A program made the position numbers and the translations under genes. Positions 2,304 through 23,465 of a DNA stretch of 64,000 bases are shown here, piece by piece. Source of the DNA: an uncultured Aquimarina sp. (GTDB lineage Bacteria > Bacteroidota > Bacteroidia > Flavobacteriales > Flavobacteriaceae); the NCBI GenBank assembly GCA_947497175.1, contig CANMFM010000008.1, positions 62,001-126,000 on the forward strand. Reading direction: 5' to 3'. The notes below the pieces were generated by a model, which worked only from the letters and a program-made list of their open reading frames with translations, was not told where the DNA came from and did no database searches. Numbering within the stretch: the first letter of the stretch is position 1; each line of letters starts with the position of its first letter.

Positions 2304-2420
2304 AATAGTTTGTGTTAAGTTTTAAAAAGAATCTATTTGTATAAATCGGAAAAGAGAATATGCTACTTTTCGCTTCATTTTGAAAAGTATAAAGAAGTGT
2401 TAAGTTCAGAAAACTAATTA

Positions 2421-2450
2421 GCTGAATGACTCGAAAATGTAGCTGTTTAG
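2421..2450 (+). promoter_or_regulatory. Candidate LytTR operator, site A
   Basis: Two direct repeats, GCTGAATGA (2421) and GCTGTTTAG (2442), have starts exactly 21 bp apart. The longer context TAGCTG also repeats at 2419 and 2440. The right half continues as GCTGTTTAGAGTATAA, matching site B (12950) in 15 of 16 bases. LytTR regulators typically bind two 9-bp direct repeats with 12 bp between them. The site lies between chitinase (minus) and the LytS kinase (plus). Assignment to a LytTR regulator is inference. Confidence 0.55.
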
Positions 2451-2586
2451 AGTATAATATATAATAAGGTGATATGTATTTCTTTTTTGTGCTTAATGCC
2501 AGAAAGACTGTTGTTTAGCTAAAAAACAGAAAGGTTTAACAAAAAAGAGGTACTTTCATTGCTGAAATCTAACCTTTTTAACACTT

Positions 2587-3624
2587 TTGATTATCAAAAT
2601 TCATAAAAGCATACTACGTCACAGCTTATTTTGGGGTGTTTACTTTACTTTAAATACGCTTAGATGGGGTAGTTACTTTGATGATTATCTGTATTCTTTT
2701 CAATCAAATCTCGTAGAATTTTTTGTCCATATTGTTCTGGTATATTTCAACCTTTATTTTTTATTGCCTCGATTGATACCTAACAAATATTTAGAATATA
2801 TAAGCATACTTTTAATATCCATCTTGACAATGACATTAGTAAGAATTATGTTTACTTACGAATTTGTCACTACCAATGTTTTTCCCGAATCTCAACAATC
2901 CAAAGGCTCGATCTTTGATCTCAATTATATTGTTGCAGCATTTATTGGAGAGATATATGTGATTGGCTTTACCACTGCTATCAAAATCACTATTGATTAT
3001 GTTAAAAATTTGCGTAAAACTGAAGAGTTAGAAAAACAAGGGTTGAAAAATGAGCTTTCTTTACTCAAATCTCAGCTTCAGCCCCATTTTTTTTTCAATA
3101 CCCTTAATAATTTATATTCTCTCACCTTAGAAAAATCAGATCAGGCTCCAGAAACTGTGGTTAAGCTATCAGAATTTATGAGTTATGTTATTTATCAAGG
3201 AAATAAAAAGAAAGTTTCCTTAACAAATGAAATTAAATATATTCAAAACTATATAGACCTGGAGTGTTTACGATACGGCGATCGAGTTAACGTTGAATTC
3301 TCTATATCCGGAACTATTCTGGGGCATACTATTCCGCCTCTTTTATTATTACAATTTATCGAAAACGCTTTCAAACATGGCACAGACCACGAGTTGGGAG
3401 CAGTTACAATATCTATAGAAATTGTGGTGAAAGATTCTTGGTTACATTTTAAAACAAAGAACAGAAAAAAGAATACTTATTCTGACAAAGTAAAGCATGA
3501 AGGAATTGGGTTAAAAAATACACGGAGAAGATTAAGCTTATTATTTGAAAACCAATATGATTTAATACTAAACGATACTACGACAAATTATACCGTTGAT
3601 TTAAAAATACCTCTTGTATCATAG
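2587..3624 (+). CDS. LytS-type membrane sensor histidine kinase
   Basis: Inner-membrane kinase of the His_kinase (PF06580) family, 345 aa, expected to phosphorylate a LytTR regulator. About four hydrophobic segments fill residues 10-140. The phosphoacceptor motif is QLQPHFFFNTLNNLYSL with H167, followed by N-box FIENAFKHG and G-box GIGLKNTRRRL. The start is TTG: an in-frame stop lies at 2563-2565, no ATG lies between it and 2587, and the next Met is near residue 82. The N-terminus also aligns with the paralogue at 23466 (RWGSYF-DY-YS). Its likely partner, the LytTR protein at 7921, is separated from it by the hybrid regulator, unlike the second pair. Confidence 0.9.
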   Translation: MIIKIHKSILRHSLFWGVYFTLNTLRWGSYFDDYLYSFQSNLVEFFVHIVLVYFNLYFLLPRLIPNKYLEYISILLISILTMTLVRIMFTYEFVTTNVFPESQQSKGSIFDLNYIVAAFIGEIYVIGFTTAIKITIDYVKNLRKTEELEKQGLKNELSLLKSQLQPHFFFNTLNNLYSLTLEKSDQAPETVVKLSEFMSYVIYQGNKKKVSLTNEIKYIQNYIDLECLRYGDRVNVEFSISGTILGHTIPPLLLLQFIENAFKHGTDHELGAVTISIEIVVKDSWLHFKTKNRKKNTYSDKVKHEGIGLKNTRRRLSLLFENQYDLILNDTTTNYTVDLKIPLVS

Positions 3625-3680
3625 AGAGTATGTTGTTTTTTACACTGATTTCGTTACTAAATATTTTTCTTTGGTGTACG

Positions 3681-3688
3681 TAAATTTG
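3681..3688 (+). promoter_or_regulatory. Candidate -7 promoter element of the hybrid regulator gene
   Basis: TAAATTTG is an exact match to the Bacteroidota -7 consensus TAnnTTTG and lies 55 bp before the ATG at 3736. No TTG at the usual 17-21 bp spacing was found, so only half the promoter is supported. Confidence 0.35.
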
Positions 3689-3735
3689 TTGATTATCGTT
3701 TTATTAAAACTTACTAATACATTCGTCTATAAAAT

Positions 3736-6700
3736 ATGCTAAACGCAAAGGTATTCATATCGACTTTATTATTTTTTGCATGCTTTCAGACCAGCAGATC
3801 ACAAGAAAATGAAATAAATTACATTACTACTCATTTTGGAAGCAGACAAGGATTATCAAATAATTATGTAACTACTATAGTTAGTGATCAACAAAATACA
3901 AAGTGGATTGGCACTGAAAACGCCATTACCAAATACAACGGTTACGAATTTGATTATATAAGAATCTCTAAAAAATATCCAGAACTTAAAAATGAAAATA
4001 TTGAAACCCTTTTTGTGGACAGTAGTAATAGACTTTGGATTGGGACTAAAGGAGGAGGCGTTTCTGTTTTAGATATTGAAAAAAATACGATTAAAAACTT
4101 CAACCACCTTATCGATCCTAATAACAAAAGTGATCAGCGAGTACTTAGTATTGCCGAGGATACTCAAGAAAATATCTGGATTGGAACCTGGGGCAATGGT
4201 ATTTTTGTAATTAATACTACAACAAATACACTCGTACGTCATTTTAGTACAACCTGCCTGGTGTACACGATTCTAAAAGATACCTATGGACATATGTGGT
4301 TTGGTAATTACAATATCTTAACAAGATTTAACCCTTTAACTAATACGATTACCGAGTTTCCTATCGAAAGTGAGATTACAGATTTAATCAATGATACCTA
4401 TAGGAATAAGATTTGGGTGGGTACCGCTGGGAATACAAATACAAATATTTATGGTTTTAATCACAACAACCAAAAAATAGATAGTATCAAAACAGGAATA
4501 GAAACAAATTTTGCCAGATACCTGGCCATAGATCAGGAGAATAAATTATGGATAGGAACCTGGAGTAATGGATTGTATATAAGCGATCCTAACCTTAAAA
4601 AGTTTACCAAACTGAATCTGCAAAATATAGATATACGAAAAGAGAATATTAACTATGAAACTATTCTGGATATTCATATCGATAAAAATAATATTATCTG
4701 GTTGTCTTTGGCATTTGGTGGAGGCGTTATACAGATAATCCCTAAAAGAGGATTTAAAAATGCATACAAAGAGATTAATAACACGATGATTCGAAAAGAT
4801 TGCAATATTCAATCTCTATATAAAAATTCAGAAAAATTATGGGTAGGAACTCTAGAAAGTGGATTGTTTGTTGGCGATGATTTTTCTAGTTTAGAAATGA
4901 TAGAGTCCAAAGATCATAAAAAAGCTATTTATCGATACAAGGATAAATTATTTGTTGGTTTTGAAGAAGGATATATTATTTATGATGCTACAACCCAAAA
5001 AGAACTATTTAGATACCCGGCCATAGAGCGGGTGACTTCATTTTTAATAGATAAAAAAGAACGCTTATGGATTGGAACCGAGCATGATGGTATTGCAATG
5101 GTGGCTTTAAAAGATAGTAAAAGATCTGATCAATACACTTATTTTCATGATGGCGGGACAGGAAATTTTAAGCTTAATAATACAGATGTTATTACCGAAA
5201 TAAAATCTGATGATGAAAATAATATTTGGGTGGGTACACAAAATGGATTTCATCTATTTGAAGAAAAAACACAATCCTTTTTACATCATACATCGCTATT
5301 TGATGAAAAATTACCCAGTACTATTGTGAATAGTATTCACTTTAATGATGGTATTATATGGATAGGAACTGCAAACGGATTATTGAAATTAAAGTTTGTA
5401 GAAAATCAATTAATTTTGAATAAGATATATACTACAACGGACGGACTTAACAATAACTTTATTAATGCAATAACAAGTGACAATGACGGCAACTTGTGGT
5501 TAAGTACAACTACTGAAATAGTTAAATTTATAAGAGCACAGAATGTTTTTATTAATTATGGAGAAGCAGATGGGGTAAAAACATCTTCCTTTAATCAAAA
5601 ATGTGTTTTTAATGATCAGGGAAATCAAATATTCTTTGGAGGTATTGATAATGTTACCTATTTCAATCCAAAAGAAATTACCACCACCCAAATCAAACCA
5701 GAAGTTATCATTTCAAAAGTCATAATAGATAATCAACATGTCACTCCCGGATCTAGTATAAACGATAGAGTCATCTTGCATCAAAACATAAACTCTGTAG
5801 ATCAAGTTGTACTAACGCATCAAGAAAAATCAATTTTGATAAGTTTTGGTTTAAATGATTATTTAGGAGAACTTAATTCGAATTACAAATACCGATTAGA
5901 AGGATTTCAAGAAGATTGGATTGATTTGAAAAGTAGAAATCAAATAAATTTCACAGGATTACCAAGTGGTAAATATAGGTTACACATTATTGGATCCAGA
6001 GATAATCGGACATGGAGCGCCGCAAAAACTCTAAAATTAGTAATAAAACCTTCTCCATTTCTAAGCGGTTGGGCATATGCAGCCTATGCATCATTATTCT
6101 TGTGCCTTACAGGCTTACTTTACATGATAAAGGTTAGACAAGACCAATTAAAACATACGCTTAAAATAGCTAAAATAGAGAAAGAAAAAGAGACGAAGCT
6201 TACTGAAGCCAAACTTAGATTTTTTACTAATATTTCTCATGAGTTCAGAACCCCCCTTACACTTATCGTAAGCCCTTTGACAGAATTGTTAGACAATAAA
6301 AATTTACCAGAATCTGTCGTAGAAAAATTAATTATAGTTCAAAAAAACGCAGATCGATTATTAAACTTAGTAACTCAATTGCTCGATTTTAGAAGAGTAG
6401 ATCATGACCTCTTTACCCTAAATACCCGTACCGATAATTTTGCCGACTTCGCATACGAGGTATTTCTTTATTTCAAAGAGCTTGCTGTATCACAGAGGAT
6501 CGCTTACACTTTTCATTCAGATGATGAAGATATTTCTTTTCCTTTTGATAAAAATAATATGGAAATCGTATTGTGTAATATTCTTTTTAATGCCTTTAAA
6601 AATACTACTGAAGGTGATCATATTTCACTAACTGTAACCAAGGATGAAGGGTGTTGTATGATTACCATAAAAGATTCTGGAAAAGGTATTGAAAAAAAAG

Positions 6701-7767
6701 AGTTAGACAAAATATTCGATCGCTTCTATCAAATAAAAGCCAGCGAATCTGCAAAAATTATTGGTAGCGGAATTGGACTAGCTTTTTCTAAAAAAATTGT
6801 GGAGCTTCATCAGGGAACTATAACCGTTAACAGTGTTCCTAAAACCGGATCAGAATTTATAGTAACAATGACTTTATCACCAGCATATTCTGAAAGGATA
6901 ACTCAAAACGATAACATTATACTAAAACCAGAACCGGGAAATAAACGTTATGATCTAGAAAAAAATGATAATATTCCTGAAAAAACTGATGCTACAAAAA
7001 GCTCTATTCTTATCATTGATGATAATGAAGATATTAGAAAATATTTGCGTAGTCTACTATCGGATACTTATAAAATTGACGAAGCTAAAAATGGTAGTAT
7101 TGGATTTGAGAAAGCCATTACACTTCATCCTGATGTAATTATTTGCGATGTGATGATGCCAGTTAAAGATGGACTATCGGTATGCAATGATCTCAAAAAA
7201 CAGATTGCAACTTCGCACATTCCTATTATTTTATTAACAGCACGAAGCTCAGCCTTTTTTGAACTTGAAGGGCTTGAAACCGGAGCCGATGATTACATTA
7301 CTAAACCATTTAATCCCACCATTATAAAAGCTAAGATAGCTTCAATATTATCCAACAGAAAAAAGCTAAAAGTATATCTGCAAAATAAAGTAAGATTTGA
7401 ACCTAATGATGAAGACATGCAATATTATGATGAAGAGGAAAGATTCATACAACAAGCTATCGAACTCATTGAGGATAATTTGCAAAATAACGAGTTTGGT
7501 ATAGAACATCTAGTTGATAAATTACACATGAGTCAATCCTCTTTATATAGAAAGATAAAATCATTAACAGGTCTGTCACTTACTGCATTTATACGTTCTG
7601 TGCGATTAAAAGCAGCAGGGAAAATAATCCTCACCAGTAATGCAAAACTTAGTCATGTGGCCTATGAGGTAGGTTTTAATGATTATAACTATTTTAAAAA
7701 ATCATTTAAAAACCATTTTGATTGCCTTCCTTCAGAATACAGAAACAAAAAGAAGTTAACTAATTAA
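3736..7767 (+). CDS. Hybrid two-component system sensor/regulator (HTCS)
   Basis: Single-chain sensor, kinase, receiver and DNA-binding protein (1343 aa) that typically senses a glycan fragment in the periplasm and activates its utilisation genes. A signal peptide (about 1-22) is followed by two seven-blade-type Reg_prop propellers with repeated IWIGT/LWIGT strands (about 25-640) and a Y_Y_Y domain (about 690-765). A membrane helix is near 775-797. HisKA has H835 in ISHEFRTPLTL; HATPase has DSGKGIEKKELDKIFDRF and GSGIGLAFSKK. The receiver has ILIIDDNEDIRKYL, phospho-Asp D1138 in ICDVMMP and the KPF lysine. An AraC-type HTH ends the protein. It sits between a LytS kinase and a LytTR regulator in a chitin locus, so a chitin oligosaccharide is the likely signal (inference). 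Confidence 0.95.
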   Translation: MLNAKVFISTLLFFACFQTSRSQENEINYITTHFGSRQGLSNNYVTTIVSDQQNTKWIGTENAITKYNGYEFDYIRISKKYPELKNENIETLFVDSSNRLWIGTKGGGVSVLDIEKNTIKNFNHLIDPNNKSDQRVLSIAEDTQENIWIGTWGNGIFVINTTTNTLVRHFSTTCLVYTILKDTYGHMWFGNYNILTRFNPLTNTITEFPIESEITDLINDTYRNKIWVGTAGNTNTNIYGFNHNNQKIDSIKTGIETNFARYLAIDQENKLWIGTWSNGLYISDPNLKKFTKLNLQNIDIRKENINYETILDIHIDKNNIIWLSLAFGGGVIQIIPKRGFKNAYKEINNTMIRKDCNIQSLYKNSEKLWVGTLESGLFVGDDFSSLEMIESKDHKKAIYRYKDKLFVGFEEGYIIYDATTQKELFRYPAIERVTSFLIDKKERLWIGTEHDGIAMVALKDSKRSDQYTYFHDGGTGNFKLNNTDVITEIKSDDENNIWVGTQNGFHLFEEKTQSFLHHTSLFDEKLPSTIVNSIHFNDGIIWIGTANGLLKLKFVENQLILNKIYTTTDGLNNNFINAITSDNDGNLWLSTTTEIVKFIRAQNVFINYGEADGVKTSSFNQKCVFNDQGNQIFFGGIDNVTYFNPKEITTTQIKPEVIISKVIIDNQHVTPGSSINDRVILHQNINSVDQVVLTHQEKSILISFGLNDYLGELNSNYKYRLEGFQEDWIDLKSRNQINFTGLPSGKYRLHIIGSRDNRTWSAAKTLKLVIKPSPFLSGWAYAAYASLFLCLTGLLYMIKVRQDQLKHTLKIAKIEKEKETKLTEAKLRFFTNISHEFRTPLTLIVSPLTELLDNKNLPESVVEKLIIVQKNADRLLNLVTQLLDFRRVDHDLFTLNTRTDNFADFAYEVFLYFKELAVSQRIAYTFHSDDEDISFPFDKNNMEIVLCNILFNAFKNTTEGDHISLTVTKDEGCCMITIKDSGKGIEKKELDKIFDRFYQIKASESAKIIGSGIGLAFSKKIVELHQGTITVNSVPKTGSEFIVTMTLSPAYSERITQNDNIILKPEPGNKRYDLEKNDNIPEKTDATKSSILIIDDNEDIRKYLRSLLSDTYKIDEAKNGSIGFEKAITLHPDVIICDVMMPVKDGLSVCNDLKKQIATSHIPIILLTARSSAFFELEGLETGADDYITKPFNPTIIKAKIASILSNRKKLKVYLQNKVRFEPNDEDMQYYDEEERFIQQAIELIEDNLQNNEFGIEHLVDKLHMSQSSLYRKIKSLTGLSLTAFIRSVRLKAAGKIILTSNAKLSHVAYEVGFNDYNYFKKSFKNHFDCLPSEYRNKKKLTN

Positions 7768-7920
7768 AAATCAGTATCTTAAATTCAATTACAATATATC
7801 TAGAAAACCTTGCATGCACTATTTGCCCTGTGTTTTGAACGATTTGACATACGTATATTATCATCAAAAGAATACTTTAGTTTCAACTTAACGTATACAA
7901 ACTTAAAACCCCACCTTAGC

Positions 7921-8655
7921 ATGAAAATAAAATGCTTAATTCTTGATGACGAACCATTAGCTATAAAAATTATTCAAAAACATTTAGAAAGTTTTAAAAA
8001 TTTTGAAGTTGTACATACCTGTACTAATCCCGTCGAGGCTTTTAATCTATTATCCATAGAAACTGTGGATTTAATTTTTTTGGATATTAATATGCCAAGG
8101 TTAAATGGCATAGAGTTTATTCAAAATCTTGATAGTCCTCCTTTTATAATTATAACTACAGCTTACAGAGAGTATGCTGTAGAGAGTTTCGAATTAGATG
8201 TAGTTGATTATTTGGTTAAGCCCATATCACTTACAAGATTTATGAAAGCCTTAAATAAGGTTTCAAAATTAGTTCATTTACAAACAAATTCTTTACAGTA
8301 TAATACTGATCGAACTCTTGATCATCTCAAAAAACAAAATCACTTTTTTGTAAAAGTCAACAAAAAAATGGTCAAAATTTATTTTGATGATATCCAATAT
8401 ATCGAGAGTTTAAAGGATTATGTTTCTATTAAAACTCCAGATAAAGACTACATTACTCATTATAACCTTTCGGCAATTACCAAATTAGTTCCAAAACAAA
8501 AATTTATGAGAGTTCACAGATCCTTTACCATTGCTTTAAATAAAGTTACTGCAATTGAAGGAAATTGTATACAGATTCATGATAAAATGGTTCCTATAGG
8601 TCGTAATTATGTTAAAGAAGTAAAAGGCAAAATTCTAAGTGGGTTTGCCGTATAA
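7921..8655 (+). CDS. LytTR-family response regulator
   Basis: 244-aa regulator with an N-terminal receiver (LILDDEPLAIKII, phospho-Asp D55 in FLDINMP, and the LVKP lysine) and a C-terminal LytTR DNA-binding domain (FVKVNKKMVKI, YIESLKDYV, FMRVHRSFTI, IPIGRNYVK-type ending). The reading frame stays open upstream to a TTG at 7810. The ATG at 7921 is preferred because it begins directly at the receiver (MKIKCLILDDEP), matching the paralogue at 24512. The LytS kinase at 2587 is its probable partner, with the hybrid regulator gene between them. It converges on the GH20 gene with only 9 bp between the stop codons. Confidence 0.93.
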   Translation: MKIKCLILDDEPLAIKIIQKHLESFKNFEVVHTCTNPVEAFNLLSIETVDLIFLDINMPRLNGIEFIQNLDSPPFIIITTAYREYAVESFELDVVDYLVKPISLTRFMKALNKVSKLVHLQTNSLQYNTDRTLDHLKKQNHFFVKVNKKMVKIYFDDIQYIESLKDYVSIKTPDKDYITHYNLSAITKLVPKQKFMRVHRSFTIALNKVTAIEGNCIQIHDKMVPIGRNYVKEVKGKILSGFAV

Positions 8656-8664
8656 TATGATATA

Positions 8665-10728: not shown

Positions 10729-10737
10729 TAATTTTTT

Positions 10738-12711
10738 TTAAAAATGATATTTCTTAAAAGCTTCAATTGCTGCATAATTTGCAAGCCCTAATTGATGATA
10801 TTTTTTTGCTGTTAACTGGTTGCGCTCTTCTGCTCTAACCCAAAACTCTCGAGAATCATCACCTTGAAACATTACTCCATCCTTTTGTGATTGATGATAA
10901 AAAATTGCTTTCCTTTTCTTCAATACTTCATCAGGACTTAAAGGAACGGCCATTTCTATATCATGAATATCCCATTCTTGCCAGGCACCACGGTATAACC
11001 AAACCCAACAATCTTTCATGAAATCTTCATGCTTTAGTTCTTTTAAAGCTTCAAAAAGCACATCGAGACAAACTTTATGAGTTCCATGAGGGTCTGCTAA
11101 ATCACCAGCCGCAAATATTTGATGTGGTTTTATTTCTTTAATTAACTTTACTGTAATTGAAACATCTTCTTTTGAAAAAGGTTTCTTTTTTACGGTTCCC
11201 GTTTCATAAAAAGGCAAGTCCAAAAATCGTACATAAGCATCTGGCAATCCAAAAAAGCGTGTAGCTCCAAGTGACTCTCCTCTTCTAATCAATCCCTTCA
11301 GATTACGAACATCCAAAGAGTCAATCGTGTCTTTTTGCTTAGCTCGTAAGTCTTTTAATATTGTATCTGCGGTACAATCGTTTTTAGTATCAGCGTTTAC
11401 ATTTTTAATGACTTCTGCAAATTTTATGGCTTCTTCATCAGATACCGCAATATTACCAGAGGTTTGATAAGCAATATGAACAGTATGTTGTTGTTCTACT
11501 AAACGTAAAAATGTTCCTCCCATAGAGATTACATCGTCATCTGGATGTGGGCTTAGAATCAATACTCTTTTTTTGTGTGGAGTATTTCTTTCTGGTCTAT
11601 TGGTATCATCTGCATTTGGTTTTCCTCCGGGCCATCCCGTTATGGTATGCTGTAAAGTATTAAACATTTTGATGTTTAAATCATACGAAGAGCCTTCATC
11701 TGCTAAAAGACTGGACATACCATGATCATTATAATCTTTTTCGGTTAATTTCAGAATCGGTTTTTGAACCTCATGACTTAACCATATTATTGCTTTACTT
11801 TTTAGCTTATCATTCCATCGGCAAGGTCCAACAAGCCAAGGAGTTTTTATGCGAGTTAATTCTTCTGACGCCTCCTGATCTAAAACAAATGTAGTATTAG
11901 TATGCCCCTGAAGGTATGTAGCAGGAATATTGGCAGATATCGGTCCTTCTATAGTTTGCTTTACTATTTCTGCCTTTTTATGCCCCCAGGCCATAATTAC
12001 GATTCGAGTAGCTTTCTTAATGGTTCCTATCCCCATGGTTATTGCTCTTTTAGGAACATTATCTATCCCGAAAAAAGAAGGAGCCGCATCTGAACGTGTT
12101 AAATGATCCAGGGTGATACTTCTGGTCACAGAATTATAATGAGATCCGGGCTCGTTAAAACCAATATGGCCCGTTCTTCCAATTCCTAACAATTGAAAAT
12201 CTAATCCTCCGAATGAATTTATTTTTAGTTCATAATCGATACAGTATTGATGCAAATCTTCTTGAGACACCATTCCATTTGGAATATGAACATTTTCAGG
12301 TAAAATATCAATATGATCAAAAAGATGTTGATGCATAAAATAGTGATAACTTTGTACGTTACCCTTGCTCATTGGATAATATTCGTCTAAATTAAAAGTG
12401 ACCACATTAGCAAAGCTTAGCCCTTCTTCTTTATGCATTCTCACCAATTCTTCGTATACTTTAATAGGTGATGAACCTGTAGCTAATCCCAAAACACAAA
12501 CCTCTTGTTTAGACTGCTTGTCTTTAATCAAATGAGCGATTTCCTGTGCTACAATAACTGAAGCGTAGTCAGAACTCTTGAAGATCACATTATGAATTCT
12601 CTCAAAACGTGTTTCTTCAAACTTACCAGCTTCACGATAACTAATATCTTTATAATAAGGAAGAGAATTATTTTGATTCAACATCCTGTCATATTGCGGT
12701 TCTAAATTCAT
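10738..12711 (-). CDS. nagB: Glucosamine-6-phosphate deaminase fused to a PIG-L/LmbE domain
   Basis: Converts glucosamine-6-phosphate to fructose-6-phosphate and ammonia, the last step of chitin sugar catabolism. The N-terminal half (about 30-320) is the deaminase: LGLATGSSPIKVYEEL, TFNLDEYYPM and GHIGFNEPGS. The C-terminal half (about 385-657) is a PIG-L/LmbE domain with zinc-binding HPDDD and DPHGTHK. This two-domain layout (657 aa) occurs in Bacteroidota; single-domain NagB is about 265 aa. The residue aligned with the catalytic-triad Asp of short NagB enzymes (before GHI) is Thr here (GRTGHI). PIG-L proteins are often N-deacetylases, so deacetylation of GlcNAc-6-phosphate by the same chain is possible, but this is inference. 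It leads GH20 in a probable two-gene operon. Confidence 0.93.
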   Translation of the reverse strand: MNLEPQYDRMLNQNNSLPYYKDISYREAGKFEETRFERIHNVIFKSSDYASVIVAQEIAHLIKDKQSKQEVCVLGLATGSSPIKVYEELVRMHKEEGLSFANVVTFNLDEYYPMSKGNVQSYHYFMHQHLFDHIDILPENVHIPNGMVSQEDLHQYCIDYELKINSFGGLDFQLLGIGRTGHIGFNEPGSHYNSVTRSITLDHLTRSDAAPSFFGIDNVPKRAITMGIGTIKKATRIVIMAWGHKKAEIVKQTIEGPISANIPATYLQGHTNTTFVLDQEASEELTRIKTPWLVGPCRWNDKLKSKAIIWLSHEVQKPILKLTEKDYNDHGMSSLLADEGSSYDLNIKMFNTLQHTITGWPGGKPNADDTNRPERNTPHKKRVLILSPHPDDDVISMGGTFLRLVEQQHTVHIAYQTSGNIAVSDEEAIKFAEVIKNVNADTKNDCTADTILKDLRAKQKDTIDSLDVRNLKGLIRRGESLGATRFFGLPDAYVRFLDLPFYETGTVKKKPFSKEDVSITVKLIKEIKPHQIFAAGDLADPHGTHKVCLDVLFEALKELKHEDFMKDCWVWLYRGAWQEWDIHDIEMAVPLSPDEVLKKRKAIFYHQSQKDGVMFQGDDSREFWVRAEERNQLTAKKYHQLGLANYAAIEAFKKYHF

Positions 12712-13055
12712 TTTTTAACTTTCATTACATTGTTTAATAGCATATAAAAATTGAAGCTATCACCTATATCATTTTTATGAAAAGTTTTTCGACAGATGAC
12801 ACAAAAGGAATTATAAATGACTTAAAAAAATAAGTAGATGGATGTATAACTATGTTCAAAAGATCCTTTTAGCTCACGCGAATGATTCGTATTTCTAAAA
12901 GATACACTAACTCTATACATAAAATCAAGTTGTTAGTCGATAAAACGGTGCTGTTTAGAGCATAAAGTAAAGATAGTTTCAAATCTTTTTTATTTTAAGA
13001 ACCATATCAGGAAAAAATCAATTCTGATTATAAAAATTCACAGAAACTCTTACTA
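12712..13055. other. Divergent intergenic region between nagB and the VCBS lipoprotein gene
   Basis: 344 bp with no gene. It must hold promoters for nagB-GH20 (minus) and the VCBS gene (plus). It contains the repeat pair described as site B. A weak -7-like TAGTTTCA lies at 12974, 24 bp after the start of the right repeat. Nothing else was recognised. Confidence 0.6.
12929..12958 (+). promoter_or_regulatory. Candidate LytTR operator, site B
   Basis: GTTGTTAGT (12929) and GCTGTTTAG (12950) are direct repeats with starts exactly 21 bp apart. The right half extends as GCTGTTTAGAGCATAA, 15 of 16 identical to site A. The pair points toward the VCBS gene whose ATG is about 98 bp further on. Its orientation and spacing suit an activator bound over the -33 region, but this is inference. 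Confidence 0.55.
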
Positions 13056-16000
13056 ATGTTAAAAAAACTATACGTAGCACTATTAATTATAACGAGTTGT
13101 ACTTCACACGACAATGATGATCACAAGACTACTGGCTCTAAATCATCTGTTTTGTTTGAAGAATTACCCAAAACTCACACTAATATTGATTTTAAAAATA
13201 CGATTACTGAAACACTTCAATTTAATTTTCTAAATTATTCGTACATCTATAATGGCGGTGGAGTGGCCGTTGGAGACATCGACAATGACGGGTTAGAAGA
13301 TCTCTATTTTGGATCTAACCAAGAAAGTAATGCTCTGTATCGTAATAAAGGTAATTTTGTTTTCGAAGATATAACCCAAAAAGCAATGGTAGCCGATGAC
13401 GATGGCTGGACCACAGGAGTCTCAATGATTGACATAAATGCAGATGGTTGGCTGGATATTTATGTATGCAAATCTGGGATGCTTCAAAATCATCAGGCAA
13501 GAAAAAATAAATTGTTTATCAACCAAAGAGATGGTACGTTTCAAGAACAGGCAAACACATATGGATTAGATTCTGAAGCTTTTTCTACTCAGGCCTATTA
13601 TCTGGATTTTGATAAAGATGGAGATTTAGATGTATATCTCGTAAATCATCGCCCAGATTTTAATAATAACGTTACCGTAGATCCAAAAGTACAATTAGAT
13701 CTTCGACCAGAAAGCACAGATCAACTGTTTGAAAATAAAAATGGAACATTTAAAGATATCACTATCACTTCTGGTATCCTTAATAAAGCTTGGGGGCTAA
13801 GTGCATCTATTGGCGATTTTAATGATGATGACTGGCCGGATATTTATGTTGCTAACGACTTTCTTGAACCTGATTTTCTTTATATCAATAACCAGGATGG
13901 TACTTTTTCAAACCAAATTCTTGACACATTTGATCACATCTCTGCCAATAGCATGGGGTCGGATTATGCCGATATAAATAATGATCTAAAACCTGATCTC
14001 ATCGTTCTTGATATGTTGGCAGAAGATCATCAAAGAAGCAAAGAAAACATGGCTACAATGAGTACCGAAAACTTTAATTATTTGGTCGCTTTAGGGTATC
14101 ACCATCAATACATGTCTAATATGTTGCACATTAATCAAGGGCAAGGAGTTTATAGTGAAATTGGACAACTTGCGGGAATTGCTAAAACAGATTGGAGTTG
14201 GGCTCCTCTTCTGGCAGATTTCAATAATGATGGCTTAAACGACCTCTTTGTTACCAATGGAATACAACATGATTTATCGAATCAGGATTTTAGGAATCAA
14301 ATGAAAAAAAACATCCGAAATCGGAAAAAAGTAACATTAGACCAAGCTATTGGCATGATGCCATCGATCAAACTTCAAAATAAAATATTTGAAAATAAAG
14401 GAAATTTCGTTTTTCAGCCAAGATCTTCAGCATGGGGGTTAGATCAAAAAACAAACTCGAATGGCGTGGTATATTCAGATCTGGATAATGATGGTGATCT
14501 CGATCTTATACTCAATAATCAATCTGAAACTGCAAGTATCTATAAAAATAACCAATCAAATCATTTTATTACACTTTCTTTAAAAGGACATGAAACGAAC
14601 CCTAATGCCATAGGATCACGTGTAACGATATATACCCAAGATCAAAAACAGTCGAAAGAATTATATACTTGCAGAGGGTTTCAATCCTCTGTGACCAATA
14701 AGCTACATTTCGGAGTACAGAAAGTGAACCTTATTGATAGTATTAAAATACACTGGTCAGCACATACATATAGTATTTTAAGAAATATTCCAAGCAATCA
14801 AAATCTTGTTGTAGCATATCCTGAAAAAAATAAACTTCATGAAAACAACAACCCAACAAAGACCAAACCTATCAACATTATAGATGCGCAGGTATTTAAT
14901 ATTACTTATCAAAACAACGAGCAACCTTTTGATGATTATGCCTTACAACTATTACTGCCTCAAAAACAATCTGAAAAAGGATCTCCGCTAGCGGTTGCCG
15001 ATGTTAATAATGACGGAAGAGATGATTTTTTTGTAGGTAATGCCAAAGGAGCTTCTGCTGCACTTTATATTCAGGATACTCGAGGTTTTTTTGAATCTTC
15101 AAGTAAGACCACTTTTGAAAAAGACAGTTATTTTGAGGATACAAAAGCACTGTTTTTTGATTGGGACACCGATGGTGATCTTGATCTTTACGTCGCCTCT
15201 GGAAGCTACGAAGATACTGCAAACAGTCCGTGGCTACAAGACAGGATTTACGAAAATGATGGGAAAGGAAATTTTATTAAAAAAAATATTCTGCCTCAAA
15301 TGTATTCTACAAGTAATGCGATTGCTACAGCCGATTATGATGGTGATGGTGATCTGGACCTTTTTATTGGTGGAAACGTAATTCCGGGTAAGTATCCTTT
15401 ATCTTACCCTTCACGATTGCTAAAGAATGAAAACAATACATTTATAGATGTTACCAATGAAATCTCTTCGGGTTTTAATAAACTTCGCCTGGTTAATGAT
15501 GCCATATTTTCGGATTATGATCAGGATGGTGATAAAGACCTTATTATCGTTGGTGAGTGGATGCCTATTTGTATTTATAAAAACGTTGATGGAAAATTTA
15601 TAAAAGCCGAGACAGAAAAATTAACAAGCTATACTGGATGGTATTTTAAGATTAAAGCTTTAGATATTGATCACGATGGAGACATGGATTACCTGATAGG
15701 AAATTTAGGTCAAAATAATAAATTTCATCCCTCTCAAAAGAAACCTTTACACATCTACGCTAAAGACTTTGATCAGAATGGAAAAATAGATATTATACTT
15801 AGTACAGTATCTAAAGATGGAATTTTAGTACCGGTTCGTGGCAAACAATGTTCTTCTGAACAATTGCCTCCGCTTACGCAAAAATTTAAAACGTACAAAG
15901 AATTTGCATCGGCGTCACTAATTGATATTTACGGCAATCAAGATCTAAATGATGCAACGCATTATATAAGCACTAATTTTAGTAGTTTACTCATGCTCAA

Positions 16001-16361
16001 TACAGGGGATGGAAATTTTGATATCCAAGAATTACCAAAAGTGGCACAATTTGGCCCTACTATGGATTTTTTAGTTGCCGATTTTGATCTTGATGGATCT
16101 ACTGATGTTTTCGGTATGGGATCTTTATATGAAACCGAAGTAGAAACCATACGTTATGATGCATCCAAAGGGTATTTTCTTTTTAGCGCTATTGAAAAAG
16201 AGAAATTAACATTGTCAGCTAAGTTCACTAACGTTCTGAATGGTATGCAAACAAGAGAAGTGGCATTTATCAATGTTTCGGGGAAAAAATATATCCTTCT
16301 TCTGGATAAAAACAATCAACTAAAATTTATTGGTTTTGAAGAACTTAATGCGATGCAATAA
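13056..16361 (+). CDS. VCBS/FG-GAP repeat lipoprotein with ASPIC/UnbV domain (CRTAC1-like)
   Basis: 1101-aa surface or periplasmic lipoprotein; lipobox IITSC with C15. It contains about fourteen calcium-loop-type motifs of the form D-x-D-x-D-G-x-x-D (for example DIDNDGLEDLYFG, DYDGDGDLDLFIGG) forming beta-propeller FG-GAP repeats. An ASPIC/UnbV segment near residues 500-585 (GSRVTIYTQDQ, RGFQSSVTNKLHFG) lies between two propeller halves. Proteins of this type often sit beside SusC/SusD genes in Bacteroidota; their biochemical role is not established and binding of glycans is only a suggestion. It has a candidate LytTR site upstream and converges on the second chitinase. Confidence 0.9.
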   Translation: MLKKLYVALLIITSCTSHDNDDHKTTGSKSSVLFEELPKTHTNIDFKNTITETLQFNFLNYSYIYNGGGVAVGDIDNDGLEDLYFGSNQESNALYRNKGNFVFEDITQKAMVADDDGWTTGVSMIDINADGWLDIYVCKSGMLQNHQARKNKLFINQRDGTFQEQANTYGLDSEAFSTQAYYLDFDKDGDLDVYLVNHRPDFNNNVTVDPKVQLDLRPESTDQLFENKNGTFKDITITSGILNKAWGLSASIGDFNDDDWPDIYVANDFLEPDFLYINNQDGTFSNQILDTFDHISANSMGSDYADINNDLKPDLIVLDMLAEDHQRSKENMATMSTENFNYLVALGYHHQYMSNMLHINQGQGVYSEIGQLAGIAKTDWSWAPLLADFNNDGLNDLFVTNGIQHDLSNQDFRNQMKKNIRNRKKVTLDQAIGMMPSIKLQNKIFENKGNFVFQPRSSAWGLDQKTNSNGVVYSDLDNDGDLDLILNNQSETASIYKNNQSNHFITLSLKGHETNPNAIGSRVTIYTQDQKQSKELYTCRGFQSSVTNKLHFGVQKVNLIDSIKIHWSAHTYSILRNIPSNQNLVVAYPEKNKLHENNNPTKTKPINIIDAQVFNITYQNNEQPFDDYALQLLLPQKQSEKGSPLAVADVNNDGRDDFFVGNAKGASAALYIQDTRGFFESSSKTTFEKDSYFEDTKALFFDWDTDGDLDLYVASGSYEDTANSPWLQDRIYENDGKGNFIKKNILPQMYSTSNAIATADYDGDGDLDLFIGGNVIPGKYPLSYPSRLLKNENNTFIDVTNEISSGFNKLRLVNDAIFSDYDQDGDKDLIIVGEWMPICIYKNVDGKFIKAETEKLTSYTGWYFKIKALDIDHDGDMDYLIGNLGQNNKFHPSQKKPLHIYAKDFDQNGKIDIILSTVSKDGILVPVRGKQCSSEQLPPLTQKFKTYKEFASASLIDIYGNQDLNDATHYISTNFSSLLMLNTGDGNFDIQELPKVAQFGPTMDFLVADFDLDGSTDVFGMGSLYETEVETIRYDASKGYFLFSAIEKEKLTLSAKFTNVLNGMQTREVAFINVSGKKYILLLDKNNQLKFIGFEELNAMQ

Positions 16362-16456
16362 GCTATGGTAATGCCGCTCAAAAATCTCTAAGACTAACAA
16401 GTAAGCTTTACCACTTATAAAGTATATAGTACTTTACAAATACTATTCAATAATGA

Positions 16457-16498
16457 AAACCCCGGTAAATAGTAGCCACTTTACTATCTCCAGGGTTT
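16457..16498 (-). terminator. Hairpin terminator between convergent VCBS and chitinase genes
   Basis: Outer arms AAACCCCGG (16457) and CCAGGGTTT (16490) pair with one mismatch; inner arms ATAGTA and TACTAT pair around a 7-nt loop. On the minus strand the stem is followed by TTTTC, which suits termination of the chitinase gene at 16535. It could also slow plus-strand transcription. Confidence 0.65.
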
Positions 16499-16534
16499 AC
16501 AACAATTAAAAACTAATCTGTATTAAAATCTTTC

Positions 16535-18379: not shown

Positions 18380-18522
18380 AATTAAAATTGGAATTTGTGT
18401 TAGGTAATTTTTATGCATAAACCTTTTCTGCAGAACTCATTTAAACATTTTCGATCAGTAAAAAATTTTGTTTTTCTACTTTAGTTTCATTTCAATTCAA
18501 AAAGTCTATATACGTTCGTTGT

Positions 18523-18565
18523 AAAAAGAGAGAAACCTGATGTGTATTCTAGCTTCTCTCTTTTT
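18523..18565 (-). terminator. Terminator after the susCD operon
   Basis: A perfect 12-bp inverted repeat, AAAAAGAGAGAA (18523) and TTCTCTCTTTTT (18554), surrounds a 19-nt loop and ends in a T5 tract on the minus strand. It begins 20 bp past the susD stop, in the right place to end susC-susD transcription before the chitinase gene. Confidence 0.7.
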
Positions 18566-18585
18566 GAAATGTATAGCAATTCAAA

Positions 18586-20208
18586 TTAAAAATTTCCTCC
18601 GGGTACATCCCACCAAAGTCGTGTTCCTGCATTATCAGGTCCACCGAGTTTGGTCACAGCACCTGCCACTCCATCAGGATTGGTTTGTAATTCACTATCT
18701 ACAAAAGGTATCCTACGAATTTGGAGATTGGTATCGATAACTCCACCACTTTGGTTACTAACTACAGGAAATATCTTCGGATATCCAGTTCGCCTGTATT
18801 CACTCCATGCTTCCTGTCCTTCTGGGAACATAGCAATCCATTTTTGAGTAATAATGCGTTCTAGTTTTTCTTCGTTAGAAGCTCCTTCATCCCAGGCTAT
18901 AGTTATATCTGTAAGTGCCGCGATATTATTAGAAGGGGTTACCGGATCTATATAATCTTTAGGAGTTCGGGTTGTGTTTGTTATATAACTTGTACTACCA
19001 GAGGCTCCATATTGCTGAAACGAAGTGTTTATTCCTAACTCATAATTATCTTGTGCTGTTCCTGCACCAGACCAACCTCTAAGAGCTGCCTCTGCCTTTA
19101 AGAAATACACCTCTGCGGCTGTCATTAATTGAACACTAGGAGTTAATACATCGTCTGATAATAAAGAGAATGTGATATAATCTTCTTTTTGAGCAAGTTC
19201 ATCGTCATAACCGGGTAATAATGGCAGTCCGTTTCTAATTCCTTTGTGTTCTCCGTCGGTTACTTCAGATACATTGAAATAATTATTAATTCTAGGATCT
19301 TCATATCCAACTAGAATTGATTCCATAGATGCATTCATACGAATATCTCCCCACGAATTATTGATCGTTTTAATGGGATGATCCAAACTTCCATTGATAA
19401 AAAAACTATCTGCATTTGTTTCCATAAGGCCGATAGGATGATTCAAAGACTTTTCACCTTCGGTTTTAGCCTTTGCCGGCGATGCTTTAGAAATACGTAT
19501 AGCTAAGCGTAGTCGCAATGAATTTGCATATTTTATCCAATTGGTATTGGCTGCCTCTCCATTATTAGAAATATACCCTTGTGGATAAGCCAGATCAAAT
19601 TCTTCAAATCTTCCATCTTCAATATTATCAGATAGTATTTGTATAGATTCTTCCAGATCGGCAAAAAATGCGTTGTACGCTTCTTCTTGAGAATCATATT
19701 CACTACTTGTTCTCGAATCTCCAAATTTTGTATACACTATAGGTCCAAAAACATCAGAAACTCTGTGCATCGCCGTTACCTTAAGTATTTCTGATATGGC
19801 AAAAAATACAGGAAATTTATCTTTTGAAGCATCTTCAATTGCTTTTGCATTGTTCATTACGTTAGCGTAAGGAACATTCCAGATAAAGTTGTTCCAACCG
19901 CTCACCAAATTATAGGTTGTATTGTTAGCCCCGGCAACAAATGGCCTTGGGTTTGTCATGTATCCAGAAAATACATCTGCATTTAGATTCTGCTGCAATT
20001 GAAAAGACCAAGGCGGATTATATTGATATATATTCTGAAATATGGGTTGAAAGGGAGCTCCTAAATCCTGAAAATCTATTTGTAATTGCTCATCTGATAT
20101 ATTTCTTGGATTTCCATCAATGCTATCCAAATCGTCTGTACATGATGATATGAATAGTAGCAAAAGTATTGCTATACTTGGTACGTAATTATTAATTATA
20201 TTTTTCAT
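18586..20208 (-). CDS. SusD/RagB-family nutrient-binding lipoprotein
   Basis: Outer-membrane lipoprotein (540 aa) that forms the lid over the SusC channel and captures glycan. Lipobox LFISSC gives C23. The N-terminal NPRNISDEQL and the helical TPR-like body with DVFGPIVY and MTAAEVYFLKAEAALRGW near residues 360-375 are typical of the SusD-like group. The C-terminus has the common WSEYRRTGYPKIFPV segment. It follows susC by 11 bp on the same strand. The substrate is not readable from the sequence; chitin oligosaccharides are inferred from the neighbours. Confidence 0.93.
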   Translation of the reverse strand: MKNIINNYVPSIAILLLLFISSCTDDLDSIDGNPRNISDEQLQIDFQDLGAPFQPIFQNIYQYNPPWSFQLQQNLNADVFSGYMTNPRPFVAGANNTTYNLVSGWNNFIWNVPYANVMNNAKAIEDASKDKFPVFFAISEILKVTAMHRVSDVFGPIVYTKFGDSRTSSEYDSQEEAYNAFFADLEESIQILSDNIEDGRFEEFDLAYPQGYISNNGEAANTNWIKYANSLRLRLAIRISKASPAKAKTEGEKSLNHPIGLMETNADSFFINGSLDHPIKTINNSWGDIRMNASMESILVGYEDPRINNYFNVSEVTDGEHKGIRNGLPLLPGYDDELAQKEDYITFSLLSDDVLTPSVQLMTAAEVYFLKAEAALRGWSGAGTAQDNYELGINTSFQQYGASGSTSYITNTTRTPKDYIDPVTPSNNIAALTDITIAWDEGASNEEKLERIITQKWIAMFPEGQEAWSEYRRTGYPKIFPVVSNQSGGVIDTNLQIRRIPFVDSELQTNPDGVAGAVTKLGGPDNAGTRLWWDVPGGNF

Positions 20209-20219
20209 AGTACTTTTTT

Positions 20220-23200
20220 TTAGAAAGTTATATTAATGTTCATCCCAAGGCTTCTTGTTGATGGTAAACCTAAAATATCCACACCTTGTAAGGCATTACC
20301 TGTACTTAAAGAAACATTAGGATCATGCGGCGCATCTTTATAGAAAAAGAATAAATTGTTGCCAACTATAGACGCTTTAATATTTGTGAAAAACGAAGAA
20401 TCTGATAAATTAAAGCTATATCCAATTGCCAACTCTGCCAAACGAACGTTTGTCGCGCTATACACATATTCTCCAGTAAATCCGTTTCTACCGCCGGCAA
20501 GTCCATAATATTCCTGTGCGGTAAGTGTCGAAACCTGTCCAGCTTCATTGACCACCTCGACAGGAGCGTTCACTGTTTCTCTTTCTGTATTATTGCTTAA
20601 TCCTTCAACAATAGCTTCAGTCATACTAATAGTTTCGCCACCAAATCGCCCATCTACCAAAAAGTCCAGACTTATATTTTTGTACGTTATTGAATTATTC
20701 CAACCTAATGTAAAATCAGGGTTTGCATTTCCAACTTTTTCTAAGGCATCAACTACATTATCGGGATTCTGATCATTTATTACAATGGCACCATTGTCTA
20801 CCACAGGTCTTCCATTAGCATCTCGTTTTACGACTTGAGCGTAAATATCTCCATACGAACCTCCTTCAACCAGATATGATGCAAAGGTATTTACTCCTTT
20901 AGGTGATATTTGTAAAAAATTAACTTCTGTATTATCTATTGGATTACTAAGCTGCTCTACTTCATTTCTATTCCTTGCAAAATTAAAATCTGCTCTCCAT
21001 TTAAGCTTTTCAGTTTGAACAGGGATTATAAAAACTGAACCTTCAAAACCTTCATTCACAATATCCCCTGAGTTTACACCAGCAATAAGATCTCCTCCAC
21101 CAGATGATGGTACTGATATATTAAAAAATTGATCTACTGTACTGGTATTATAATATCCAATATCAAATCCAAATCTATTATTAAAGAATCGCCACTCTGT
21201 ACCGATTTCATAGGATGTCTGGGTCTCTGGCCTTAATATTCCTAGTGGTGTCACCGGGTTTTCAGGATCCAAACCTCCGCCAAACAAAATTTCTCTCTGA
21301 GGGTTCACAGTATTTGCATTTACATCATTTCCTACTTCGGCATAAGAACCTCTAATTTTTGCAAAAGAAATATGATCTCCCATATCAAACATTTCTGTTA
21401 AAATACCTGTAAGACCAACCGATGGATAAAAATAAGAGTTGTTCTCTGCAGGCAACGATGAAGACCAGTCGTTACGTGCCGTTACATCTAAGAATATCAT
21501 TTCATTATATCCAAGAGTGGTACTTGCAAATACAGAATTGATCCTTTTCTCTAATGATGATTGAGATATGGCTGCTCCCGGACTAGCATTAAAATTTTGA
21601 ATCGAAAATACATTGGCAAATTGCAATCCTCCATTTGTACCAGAATCAGCATTAAAAATTTCTGTAGTTGTTCTCGTTGTACTTGTACCGATATTGGCCG
21701 ATATAGAAAATTTATCAACCTGTTTATTTATGTTCGCAATTACATCTCCATACAGCTGTCTGACATCTTGATTGCTAAAAATATATCTACCATTTTCTGG
21801 TGCCAGAGTCGCTTCTGTAGTTGCATAAATTCTTTTATCAAAGTCTAAAAGTGTTTGGTCATAGGTTCCTCTTGTTTGTAATGACAACCAATCACTAATT
21901 TTAAAGTTTAAATTCAAATTAGCAACCAACTTTCTATTTTTATCTTCACTGGCATTTCGATTGAGAATCCAATATGGATTTTGTTCAATATCTGAAGTTC
22001 CTCTAAACCATCTTTGTTGCTGGATATTTCTATTGGGATCAAACTCTTCAAAATTCTCATAATCTACAAGACGTTCTCCGGGAGAATCAAAATTATAAGC
22101 GCCTACCAGGGGATTAAAATATAACCCTGACACAGGTCTATTATCAATAGATTGAGTAGTCGCCAACACACTGGCATTTGCAGTGACGACACCATTAAAG
22201 AATTTTGCAGTTTCTCTAATATTGAAAGTATGCTGTTTCAACTTATTTGTAGGCAAAATACCGTTTGAAAACGTATTTGAATATGAAAAATAGGTTTGTG
22301 CGTTTTCTGTCCCACCAGATGCAGAAAGCGAGGTAATCGTTGTTAATCCGGTGTTGAAAAAATCATCAATATTATCATCTGCCTTATCATTTAGATCGAT
22401 GTAATATGCTGCACTTTCGGCAAAAACATTAGACGACGCATTTACTTTGAAGTTACCGGCTCTTCCTTTCTTGGTGGTGATCAAAATTACACCATTAAGT
22501 CCGGCACTACCATATAATGCTGAAGCAGATGCTCCTTTAAGTACCGTTAAAGACTCTATATCATCTGGATTAATCAATGATAAAGCATCTCCTCCGTCAC
22601 GATTACCCCCATTAATATCTCCAAAAGTATTATCAGGTTGTCCGGCACTCGGATTGGATAAAGGAATCCCGTCAACCACATAAAGAGGTTGGTTATTTCT
22701 AAGTGAAGAGTTTCCTCTTAAGGTTACCTTAACCGACCCTCCGGCACCCGAAGAACTTCGGTTGATCACAACTCCGGATACTTTTCCAGAGAGACTATTT
22801 ATCGGGTTGGTTTGTTTTACTCTCTGTAACTCATCGGCATTAATATCCTGTGCAGCATAGGTTAATGATTTCCTGCTTTTTTGAATCCCTAATGCTGTAA
22901 CTACAACATCATCTAACTGCTCCAGACTTTCTTCCATAGCCACATCAATTGTATTTGATGCCCCTACGGTTATAGAAACAGTTGTAAACCCCAAATAACT
23001 AAATTCAAGAATCTCACCAACAGATGAATTAATTGTATAATTTCCGTCAAAATCTGTTTGTACTCCTTTTGCTGTTCCCTTTACAAGCACATTAACTCCC
23101 GGAAGTGGCATTGAGTTTTCTCCCTTTGAAGTTACCGTTCCTGTAATTGTTTTCTCTTGCGCTTCTACTTGCTGAATTATTAGAAAGGATAGAAAGGCAG

Positions 23201-23225
23201 AAAAAATCAAAATAGTTTTTTTCAT
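20220..23225 (-). CDS. SusC/RagA-family TonB-dependent outer-membrane transporter
   Basis: 1001 aa from the ATG at 23225; an upstream TTG at 23240 is in frame but would only add five residues before the signal peptide. The signal ends at VEAQEK. A carboxypeptidase-D-like domain (about 25-105: ITGTVTSKG, GVNVLVKGT, TDFDGNYTI) precedes the plug (LYVVDGIPLSNP, DIESLTVLKGASASALYG, NGVILITTKKG) and the 22-strand barrel ending in Phe (MNINITF). It would import oligosaccharide with energy from TonB. Cotranscribed with SusD and divergent from the LytS kinase at 23466; a LytTR-like repeat pair lies 75 bp before its start. Confidence 0.95.
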   Translation of the reverse strand: MKKTILIFSAFLSFLIIQQVEAQEKTITGTVTSKGENSMPLPGVNVLVKGTAKGVQTDFDGNYTINSSVGEILEFSYLGFTTVSITVGASNTIDVAMEESLEQLDDVVVTALGIQKSRKSLTYAAQDINADELQRVKQTNPINSLSGKVSGVVINRSSSGAGGSVKVTLRGNSSLRNNQPLYVVDGIPLSNPSAGQPDNTFGDINGGNRDGGDALSLINPDDIESLTVLKGASASALYGSAGLNGVILITTKKGRAGNFKVNASSNVFAESAAYYIDLNDKADDNIDDFFNTGLTTITSLSASGGTENAQTYFSYSNTFSNGILPTNKLKQHTFNIRETAKFFNGVVTANASVLATTQSIDNRPVSGLYFNPLVGAYNFDSPGERLVDYENFEEFDPNRNIQQQRWFRGTSDIEQNPYWILNRNASEDKNRKLVANLNLNFKISDWLSLQTRGTYDQTLLDFDKRIYATTEATLAPENGRYIFSNQDVRQLYGDVIANINKQVDKFSISANIGTSTTRTTTEIFNADSGTNGGLQFANVFSIQNFNASPGAAISQSSLEKRINSVFASTTLGYNEMIFLDVTARNDWSSSLPAENNSYFYPSVGLTGILTEMFDMGDHISFAKIRGSYAEVGNDVNANTVNPQREILFGGGLDPENPVTPLGILRPETQTSYEIGTEWRFFNNRFGFDIGYYNTSTVDQFFNISVPSSGGGDLIAGVNSGDIVNEGFEGSVFIIPVQTEKLKWRADFNFARNRNEVEQLSNPIDNTEVNFLQISPKGVNTFASYLVEGGSYGDIYAQVVKRDANGRPVVDNGAIVINDQNPDNVVDALEKVGNANPDFTLGWNNSITYKNISLDFLVDGRFGGETISMTEAIVEGLSNNTERETVNAPVEVVNEAGQVSTLTAQEYYGLAGGRNGFTGEYVYSATNVRLAELAIGYSFNLSDSSFFTNIKASIVGNNLFFFYKDAPHDPNVSLSTGNALQGVDILGLPSTRSLGMNINITF

Positions 23226-23300
23226 AAAATTAAGTTTCAATTTGATTGTTATTCCTTTCTAAAGGTAAATGTGAATAAAATTAAAAAGGAAATTAAATAT

Positions 23301-23330
23301 CCAAACAGCATGAAACAAACAATAAACAAC
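23301..23330 (-). promoter_or_regulatory. Candidate LytTR operator, site C
   Basis: On the minus strand GTTGTTTAT (starting 23330) and GCTGTTTGG (starting 23309) are direct repeats with starts exactly 21 bp apart, each 8 of 9 to GYTGTTTAG. The pair points toward susC. TAATTTTA, a -7-like sequence, lies about 26 bp after the start of the second repeat. Confidence 0.55.
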
Positions 23331-23465
23331 ATATTTTTGGATACTAATGTTTTTGAGTTTGACAGATTTTAAAATTATATCATAACTATTTTGTATTTAA
23401 TTAAAAAAACACATAATTTTTTCACGTTTTTTAACAATTTTTCACAAAATCACAATACAAAACAT

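Follow-up and report, generated by a model that had tools for sequence, protein, structure and literature searches.

We analysed a window of 64,000 nucleotides from an uncultured Aquimarina sp. (contig CANMFM010000008.1 of assembly GCA_947497175.1, positions 62,001 to 126,000), which carries a chitin locus with two response regulators of the LytTR type. An original prediction made from the letters of this window described three pairs of 9-bp repeats with start distances of 21 bp (2421/2442, 12929/12950 and 23330/23309, here sites A, B and C), and proposed that they mark all divergent promoters of the locus as operators of both regulators. The letters, coordinates and start distances of the three pairs are exact. 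Following the sites through related genomes and across the Flavobacteriaceae, we confirm and extend two of the three, reinterpret the remaining one and propose two additional sites. The genome of the window is called G000 below, and the locus lies on its contig C8.

Genes and candidate operators of the chitin locus

The locus begins at the window edge with the chitinase gene chiA on the minus strand. It continues with LytS1, a hybrid two-component regulator and LytTR1 (plus), GH20 and a nagB/PIG-L fusion (minus), and a VCBS/ASPIC gene (plus). Past the VCBS gene lie GH18b, susD and susC (minus), followed by LytS2, LytTR2 and an SSF transporter (plus). The genes needed below are the following:

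3..2303, minus strand: chiA, GH18 chitinase (PF00704), continuing beyond the window edge
2587..3624, plus strand: LytS1 histidine kinase (PF06580)
3736-7767: AraC-type hybrid two-component regulator (HTCS), between LytS1 and LytTR1
7921..8655, plus strand: LytTR1 response regulator, receiver (REC, PF00072) and LytTR (PF04397) domains; open reading frame (ORF) start TTG 7810
10738..12711, minus strand: nagB (PF01182) fused to a PIG-L deacetylase domain (PF02585)
13056..16361, plus strand: VCBS protein (FG-GAP, PF13517; ASPIC/UnbV, PF07593)
20220..23240, minus strand: susC, TonB-dependent receptor (PF07715, PF13715)
23391..24515, plus strand: LytS2 histidine kinase (PF06580), ATG near 23466
24512..25237, plus strand: LytTR2 response regulator (PF00072, PF04397), counterpart of CusR by synteny

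The nearest named relatives of LytTR1 come from Aquimarina. LytTR1 and LytTR2 are 51-52% identical and have many LytTR-domain residues in common. Both contain the FhRhHRS motif, as FMRVHRS and FIRVHRS. A comparison of LytTR2 with solved structures gave 246 matches, of which the 60 listed match by the receiver domain. In G011, LytS1 and LytTR1 adjoin without an HTCS gene between them, so HTCS appears to have been inserted between a kinase and its regulator.

The candidate operators consist of two 9-bp halves each, followed by a box resembling the -7 promoter element. The arrangements at LytS1, nagB and chiA were spotted by eye from conserved blocks, and those at LytS1 and nagB were absent from the original prediction.

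2422-2430, minus strand: promoter-proximal half GTCATTCAG of the predicted chiA operator (site A), with the extension CTAATTAG at 2414-2421
2442..2450, plus strand: second half of site A, GCTGTTTAG, in the opposite orientation
2382..2389, minus strand: chiA -7-like box TACTTTTC, 32 bp after the proximal half
2489..2518, plus strand: predicted LytS1 operator, GTGCTTAAT (2489-2497) and GTTGTTTAG (2510-2518), 21 bp apart
2551..2558, plus strand: LytS1 -7-like box TACTTTCA
12792..12821, minus strand: candidate nagB operator, GTCATTTAT (12813-12821) and GTCATCTGT (12792-12800), 21 bp apart
12752..12759, minus strand: nagB -7-like box TAGCTTCA
12929..12958, plus strand: predicted VCBS operator (site B), GTTGTTAGT (12929-12937) and GCTGTTTAG (12950-12958)
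12991..12998, plus strand: VCBS -7-like box TATTTTAA
23301..23330, minus strand: predicted susC operator (site C), GTTGTTTAT (23322-23330) and GCTGTTTGG (23301-23309)
23260..23267, minus strand: susC -7-like box TACCTTTA, 33 bp past the proximal half

The pairs therefore do not mark all divergent promoters, as had been proposed: site B points to VCBS and site C to susC, while LytS1 and nagB have pairs of their own. The related claim that site B coordinates nagB-GH20 as well as VCBS found no support either. We rejected site B as a nagB site, since both the VCBS gene and site B are missing beside nagB in G017 and L045, yet the nagB pair is kept there, in diverged form in L045.

Conserved spacing of the direct pairs and of the -7-like box

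A half-site matrix was derived from only the five nearest site-C pairs and used to compare all 31 lags from 10 to 40 bp at orthologous loci of Aquimarina and other genera. Lag 21 scored best at 14 of the 19 susC promoters, nine of them outside the training set (the susC promoter of G027 was dropped by a start filter). At VCBS promoters, none of which had been used for training, it scored best in seven of eight, with G011 giving 27. A TA dinucleotide, the start of the -7-like box, stands 32 bp past the proximal half (+32) in all seven VCBS sites. In a pattern search, a pair of the site B type with TA at +32 was recovered at the VCBS genes of G019, G002 and G020. Considering this conservation, sites B and C are well-supported candidates for operators.

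Site C is retained beside LytS2-LytTR2 even where susC is a distant paralogue, with 31% and 34% identity (G338 and L045), which suggests that the motif follows the regulator. The operator and its spacing to the -7 box are also kept at VCBS genes lying away from susC. In G019 the VCBS site (L196) is on contig C3 and susC on C9, and the VCBS genes L201 (G020) and L198 (G002) lie about 30-50 kb from susC.

The same arrangement extends beyond the genus. LytTR2 was searched in 397 Flavobacteriaceae genomes, of which 101 matched at E ≤ 1e-66. The 29 best matches besides that of G000, all from other genera, formed the family set; two had no LytS2 in the flank, leaving 27 loci. We scanned 330 bp upstream of LytS2 in the direction away from this gene. 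The best lag was 21 in 17 of the 27 loci, no other lag was best more than twice, and the reverse direction gave lag 21 in one. A pair of the site C type (lag-21 score of at least 10, which excluded L171 at 9.7) stands beside LytS2-LytTR2 in 20 loci, with halves that are mostly GTTGTCTRT and GTYGTTTRT. In all 20 loci TA follows exactly 32 bp past the second half, a position that had not been fitted. The divergent ORF, read by eye, has a SusC-like start in 16 of these loci, a NagB-like start in two and is unreadable in two; tblastn confirmed the reading for G494 and G720. A second TA occurs one base after the second half in all 20 clear-pair loci (L152-L177), and the half-site may extend to GYYGTTTRTNTA.

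Of the 44 hand-picked sites of the genus, 39 have TA at 31-33 bp past the proximal half, and 33 have it at exactly 32 bp. The sites thus stand at a nearly fixed distance upstream of a predicted core promoter in both the family and the genus. In genus g21 (G056 and G057), susC, nagB and GH20 lie next to a regulator that shares 48-49% identity with that of the window and in G057 is slightly nearer LytTR1 than LytTR2. Here the pair with TA at +32 precedes susC in both genomes and nagB in G056, a further sign that the motif follows the regulator. The family -7 box is mostly TA[GC]TTT[GA]G, about equally like the shortened SM5-type TAnnTTGY of F. psychrophilum and TAnnTTTG (PMC9723704). An alternative sigma factor at these promoters is possible.

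The LytS1 and nagB sites share this geometry. The LytS1 arrangement recurs in G015, G022, L044 and, by eye, G011; TA stands at 32-33 bp in four of four sites, and the distal half is weak (mean 6.5/9). The nagB pair is found in eight genomes, diverged in L045, with TA at +32 in all eight.

The chiA site and the choice between readings

Site A had been described as a plus-strand direct repeat, sharing GCTGTTTAGAGYATAA with site B. That string is indeed common to A and B in G000, but in relatives the bases that follow GCTGTTTAG at A are not conserved. GTCATTCAG is the minus-strand complement of the left repeat, GCTGAATGAC. Following this minus-strand half, TA occurs at +32 in 10 of 10 chiA promoters. 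Only the minus-strand reading has a box there; on the plus strand after 2442 no conserved box was seen by eye. The distal arm of the 10 chiA sites matches the half-site consensus at a mean of 8.0 of nine positions when inverted versus 5.8 when direct, and at seven further sites at 7.0 versus 4.9. The opposite holds for B, C, LytS1 and nagB, where direct repeats give the better fit. Exceptions or ties, in which the inverted reading is not favoured, are the chiA sites of L045 (in the comparison by identity) and G027.

Some results speak for the direct reading of site A. The site-C matrix picks the plus-strand site A pair, and not 2489/2510, at lag 21 in three of four LytS1-side promoters, and in G000 this pair has a shuffle p of 0.01 at lag 21 and 0.05 over all lags. 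Despite this pick, we rejected the plus-strand direct repeat on the grounds of the +32 box and the fit of the arms. The best reading of site A is two opposed halves that belong to chiA, which would explain the poor consensus fit of its left repeat in the original prediction. The expectation that the sites be conserved in orthologous promoters thus holds for B and C, and site A is kept in a form better described as opposed halves.

We next consider which regulator goes with which site. LytTR1 orthologues (E ≤ 1e-82) are present in 13 of 56 relatives. The chiA block GTCATTCAGCTAATTAG (17 bases, at most one mismatch) occurs in 10 of these 13 genomes, with an exact copy in each, and in none of the 43 without LytTR1 (Fisher p 8e-9, ignoring relatedness), and the reversed control gave no hit. 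The other three LytTR1 genomes carry a version of the block before chiA that differs at 2-3 of 20 bases, again with TA at +32. By annotation it lies upstream of chiA in nine of the 13 (G000, G001, G011, G015, G019, G020, G022, G024 and G031), and it lies beside LytTR1 in G002, G004, G026 and G029. G012, G017 and G027 have no match nearer LytTR1 than LytTR2, and at chiA their proximal half has the canonical form GYYGTTTAG.

Four genomes contain the block a second time, with one mismatch and TA at +32. This copy precedes an ORF of about 885 aa in G001, G002 and G029 (L142:1939-4593, L143:1556-4207 and L144 from 1958); in G026 the copy was judged by similar letters only. In the two of these ORFs that were scanned, from G001 and G029, the only Pfam match is a type IX sorting tail.

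We think it likely that the repeats are LytTR operators from which transcription is activated at a fixed distance, with LytTR2 at the direct pairs and LytTR1 at chiA. For this division of sites, the simplest reading of the co-occurrence, we infer which protein binds which site. LytTR2 is a possible regulator at the nagB pair. Cross-binding of the two proteins is possible because their LytTR domains share many residues.

A single GYTGTTTAG direct-repeat operator used by both proteins at the three divergent promoters, as first proposed, now seems unlikely. A half of the form GYY(G/A)TTYRK is common to all sites, and both the similarity of the two proteins and the lag-21 pick of the plus-strand site A pair are consistent with a shared operator. 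Against it, the chiA site fits opposed halves better, its CTAATTAG extension tracks LytTR1, and each gene has a separate directed site. The part of the proposal that stands is that 9-12-9 repeats accompany LytTR genes; the single operator for both regulators found no support. A history that would connect the two arrangements, for which the odds seem to us somewhat short of even, is a handover in which LytTR1 took chiA from the CusR regulon in some Aquimarina. The chiA operator would have changed from the canonical GYYGTTTAG of G012, G017 and G027 to opposed halves with the CTAATTAG extension, a form that four genomes also have in front of another gene, and the code at the transport genes would have stayed as it was.

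Binding of the repeats by HTCS instead is improbable. The HTCS gene (3736-7767) lies inside the locus, and HTCS proteins commonly control loci of this kind. Yet the fetched loci of G012, G017, G031, G001 and G020 contain no HTCS match (the rest of these genomes was not searched) and have sites B, C or A, and the LytS1-LytTR1 pair of G011 is uninterrupted.

Several results weigh against LytTR2 and LytTR1 operators at these sites. The pair is absent from seven of the 27 family loci, which have no SusC- or NagB-like start in the flank. The 20 loci with the pair span 17 genera, some share a genus and a few are nearly identical, and the counts are not of independent events. A clear lag-21 pair at susC is missing in the more distant G048, G034 and G033. 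The five of 44 genus sites without TA at 31-33 bp are three site-C rows (G012, G017 and L045) and the canonical direct chiA pairs of G012 and G017. Among the six nearest site-C sequences, conservation is not clearly higher in the half-sites than in the spacer, and the same is true of the nagB half-sites and their own spacer. The site-C matrix, for which neither gene served in training, favours lag 21 in only two of 15 nagB promoters, with a shuffle p of 0.18 for G000, and in one of 12 chiA promoters.

Scans with a simple consensus belong with these points. GYTGTTTAG-N12-GYTGTTTAG with up to three mismatches matches twice in the window (sites B and C, with site A missed) against 0.20 expected, and at least two matches arose in two of 100 shuffles. 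Across the whole genome the same scan gave 16 matches against 25 for the reversed control. A looser consensus with one mismatch likewise gave no excess over the control in 56 genomes. Significance is thus not demonstrable by a consensus scan alone; for B and C it comes from conservation. At zero mismatches the looser consensus has 15 hits in 11 Aquimarina genomes among the matches listed. Six of these correspond to site C at susC, four fall in VCBS promoters (G031, G019, G002 and G020), and two resemble VCBS sites by letters only (G004:C6 and G029:C19). Two others (L199 and L200) lack TA at +32 and match no gene of the locus, and one (G007) is a GTTGTTC-type tandem repeat. A two-mismatch hit near another LytTR gene, at G000:C4:571084, was rejected, as it lies by eye inside a permease-like ORF.

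We also built a covariance model, R1, that uses sequence only. Removing four near-duplicates from the 44 hand-picked sites left a list of 40, of which 29 went into the model; nine chiA minus-strand and two nagB rows were omitted. The four sites of G000 used in training reach 36.1, 34.4, 33.7 and 33.0 bits, and the match ranked next in that genome reaches 15.7. This suggests only weakly that G000 has no further member, since the model was trained on those very sites. The best untrained hits, L130 (G017) and L132 (G022), showed no clear lag-21 pair by eye and were set aside.

Chance, or A-tract phasing in AT-rich intergenic DNA, agrees with the absence of genome-wide enrichment in these scans and is nevertheless very improbable, given lag 21 in 17 of 27 held-out loci, TA exactly at +32 in 20 of 20, and the specific letters of the half-sites.

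Predicted operators in relation to known LytTR systems

In the mechanism that we propose, two phosphorylated LytTR monomers would sit side by side on 9-bp half-sites GYYRTTYRK, 21 bp or two helical turns apart. The promoter-proximal half would usually end 32 bp (31-33) before a TANNTT-like -7 box. LytTR2, with LytS2, would activate through the direct pairs at susC (site C) and VCBS (site B), probably at LytS1 and perhaps at nagB. LytTR1 would govern chiA through opposed halves, GTCATTCAGCTAATTAG plus GCTGTTTAG or GATTTTCAG. The sequences, spacing, geometry, conservation and co-occurrence described above are observations; activation, phosphorylation and chitin-derived sugars as the signal are what we infer beyond them. 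By eye, the GTT core and the last two positions of the half-sites fit the published LytTR consensus, [TA][AC][CA]GTTN[AG][TG], and the first three positions fit in part.

A LytTR operator comprises a pair of 9-11 nt repeats separated by 11-13 nt, in direct or inverse orientation (PMC4847170). The window has 9 + 12 + 9 arrangements at B, C, LytS1 and nagB and an opposed pair at chiA, and both regulators of the locus contain PF04397. The flavobacterial sigma A box TAnnTTTG lies at -12 to -5 (PMC9723704). If the TA observed here belongs to a sigma A box, one half would lie at about -74 to -66 and the other at about -53 to -45, which puts the centre of the pair near -60. This position would suit an activator that contacts RNA polymerase from just upstream.

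The AgrA half-site is ACAGTTAAG-like, and AgrA differs from the Aquimarina regulators in host promoter type and half-site sequence. It resembles them in binding as a dimer to two direct repeats, centred near -60 in S. aureus, and in residues of an FhRhHRS-type motif, which contact DNA (PMC4227749). E. coli YpdB is likewise a LytTR regulator that binds direct repeats with an ATT core, spaced 21 bp in the printed probe for yhjX; it differs in its 10-bp GGCATTTCAT repeats and its response to pyruvate (PMC4847170). RcoM1 and CoxC also use LytTR direct repeats at about two helical turns (18-21 bp for CoxC). Unlike the sites described here, theirs comprise three 8-bp repeats, and CoxC represses (PMC11347149).

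The closest known locus is that of CusS-CusR in F. johnsoniae, where two-component genes lie beside susC/D pairs, nagB, GH20, GH18 and an inner-membrane transporter, as they do here. Deletion of cusS-cusR abolished growth on chitin and ChiA production (PMC5127042). The window has the same neighbourhood of susC/susD, nagB, GH20 and a transporter. The Aquimarina locus differs in its second regulator LytTR1, in HTCS, and in an SSF instead of an MFS transporter (PMC5127042). CusR is the counterpart of LytTR2 by gene order and synteny only; the available part of that source names neither CusR as a LytTR protein nor an operator (PMC5127042).

We found no operator of a LytTR regulator in Bacteroidetes in the literature searched, which was covered largely at the level of titles and summaries. 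This kind of LytTR operator is already known; the code, the promoter geometry shared across genera and the apparent split between two regulators are new predictions. They provide a predicted binding code and promoter geometry for a chitin-locus two-component regulator in 17 other genera of Flavobacteriaceae. Regulon members can be proposed from sequence, such as the VCBS gene on another contig in G019. It would also be a naturally occurring example of a locus shared out between two related regulators.

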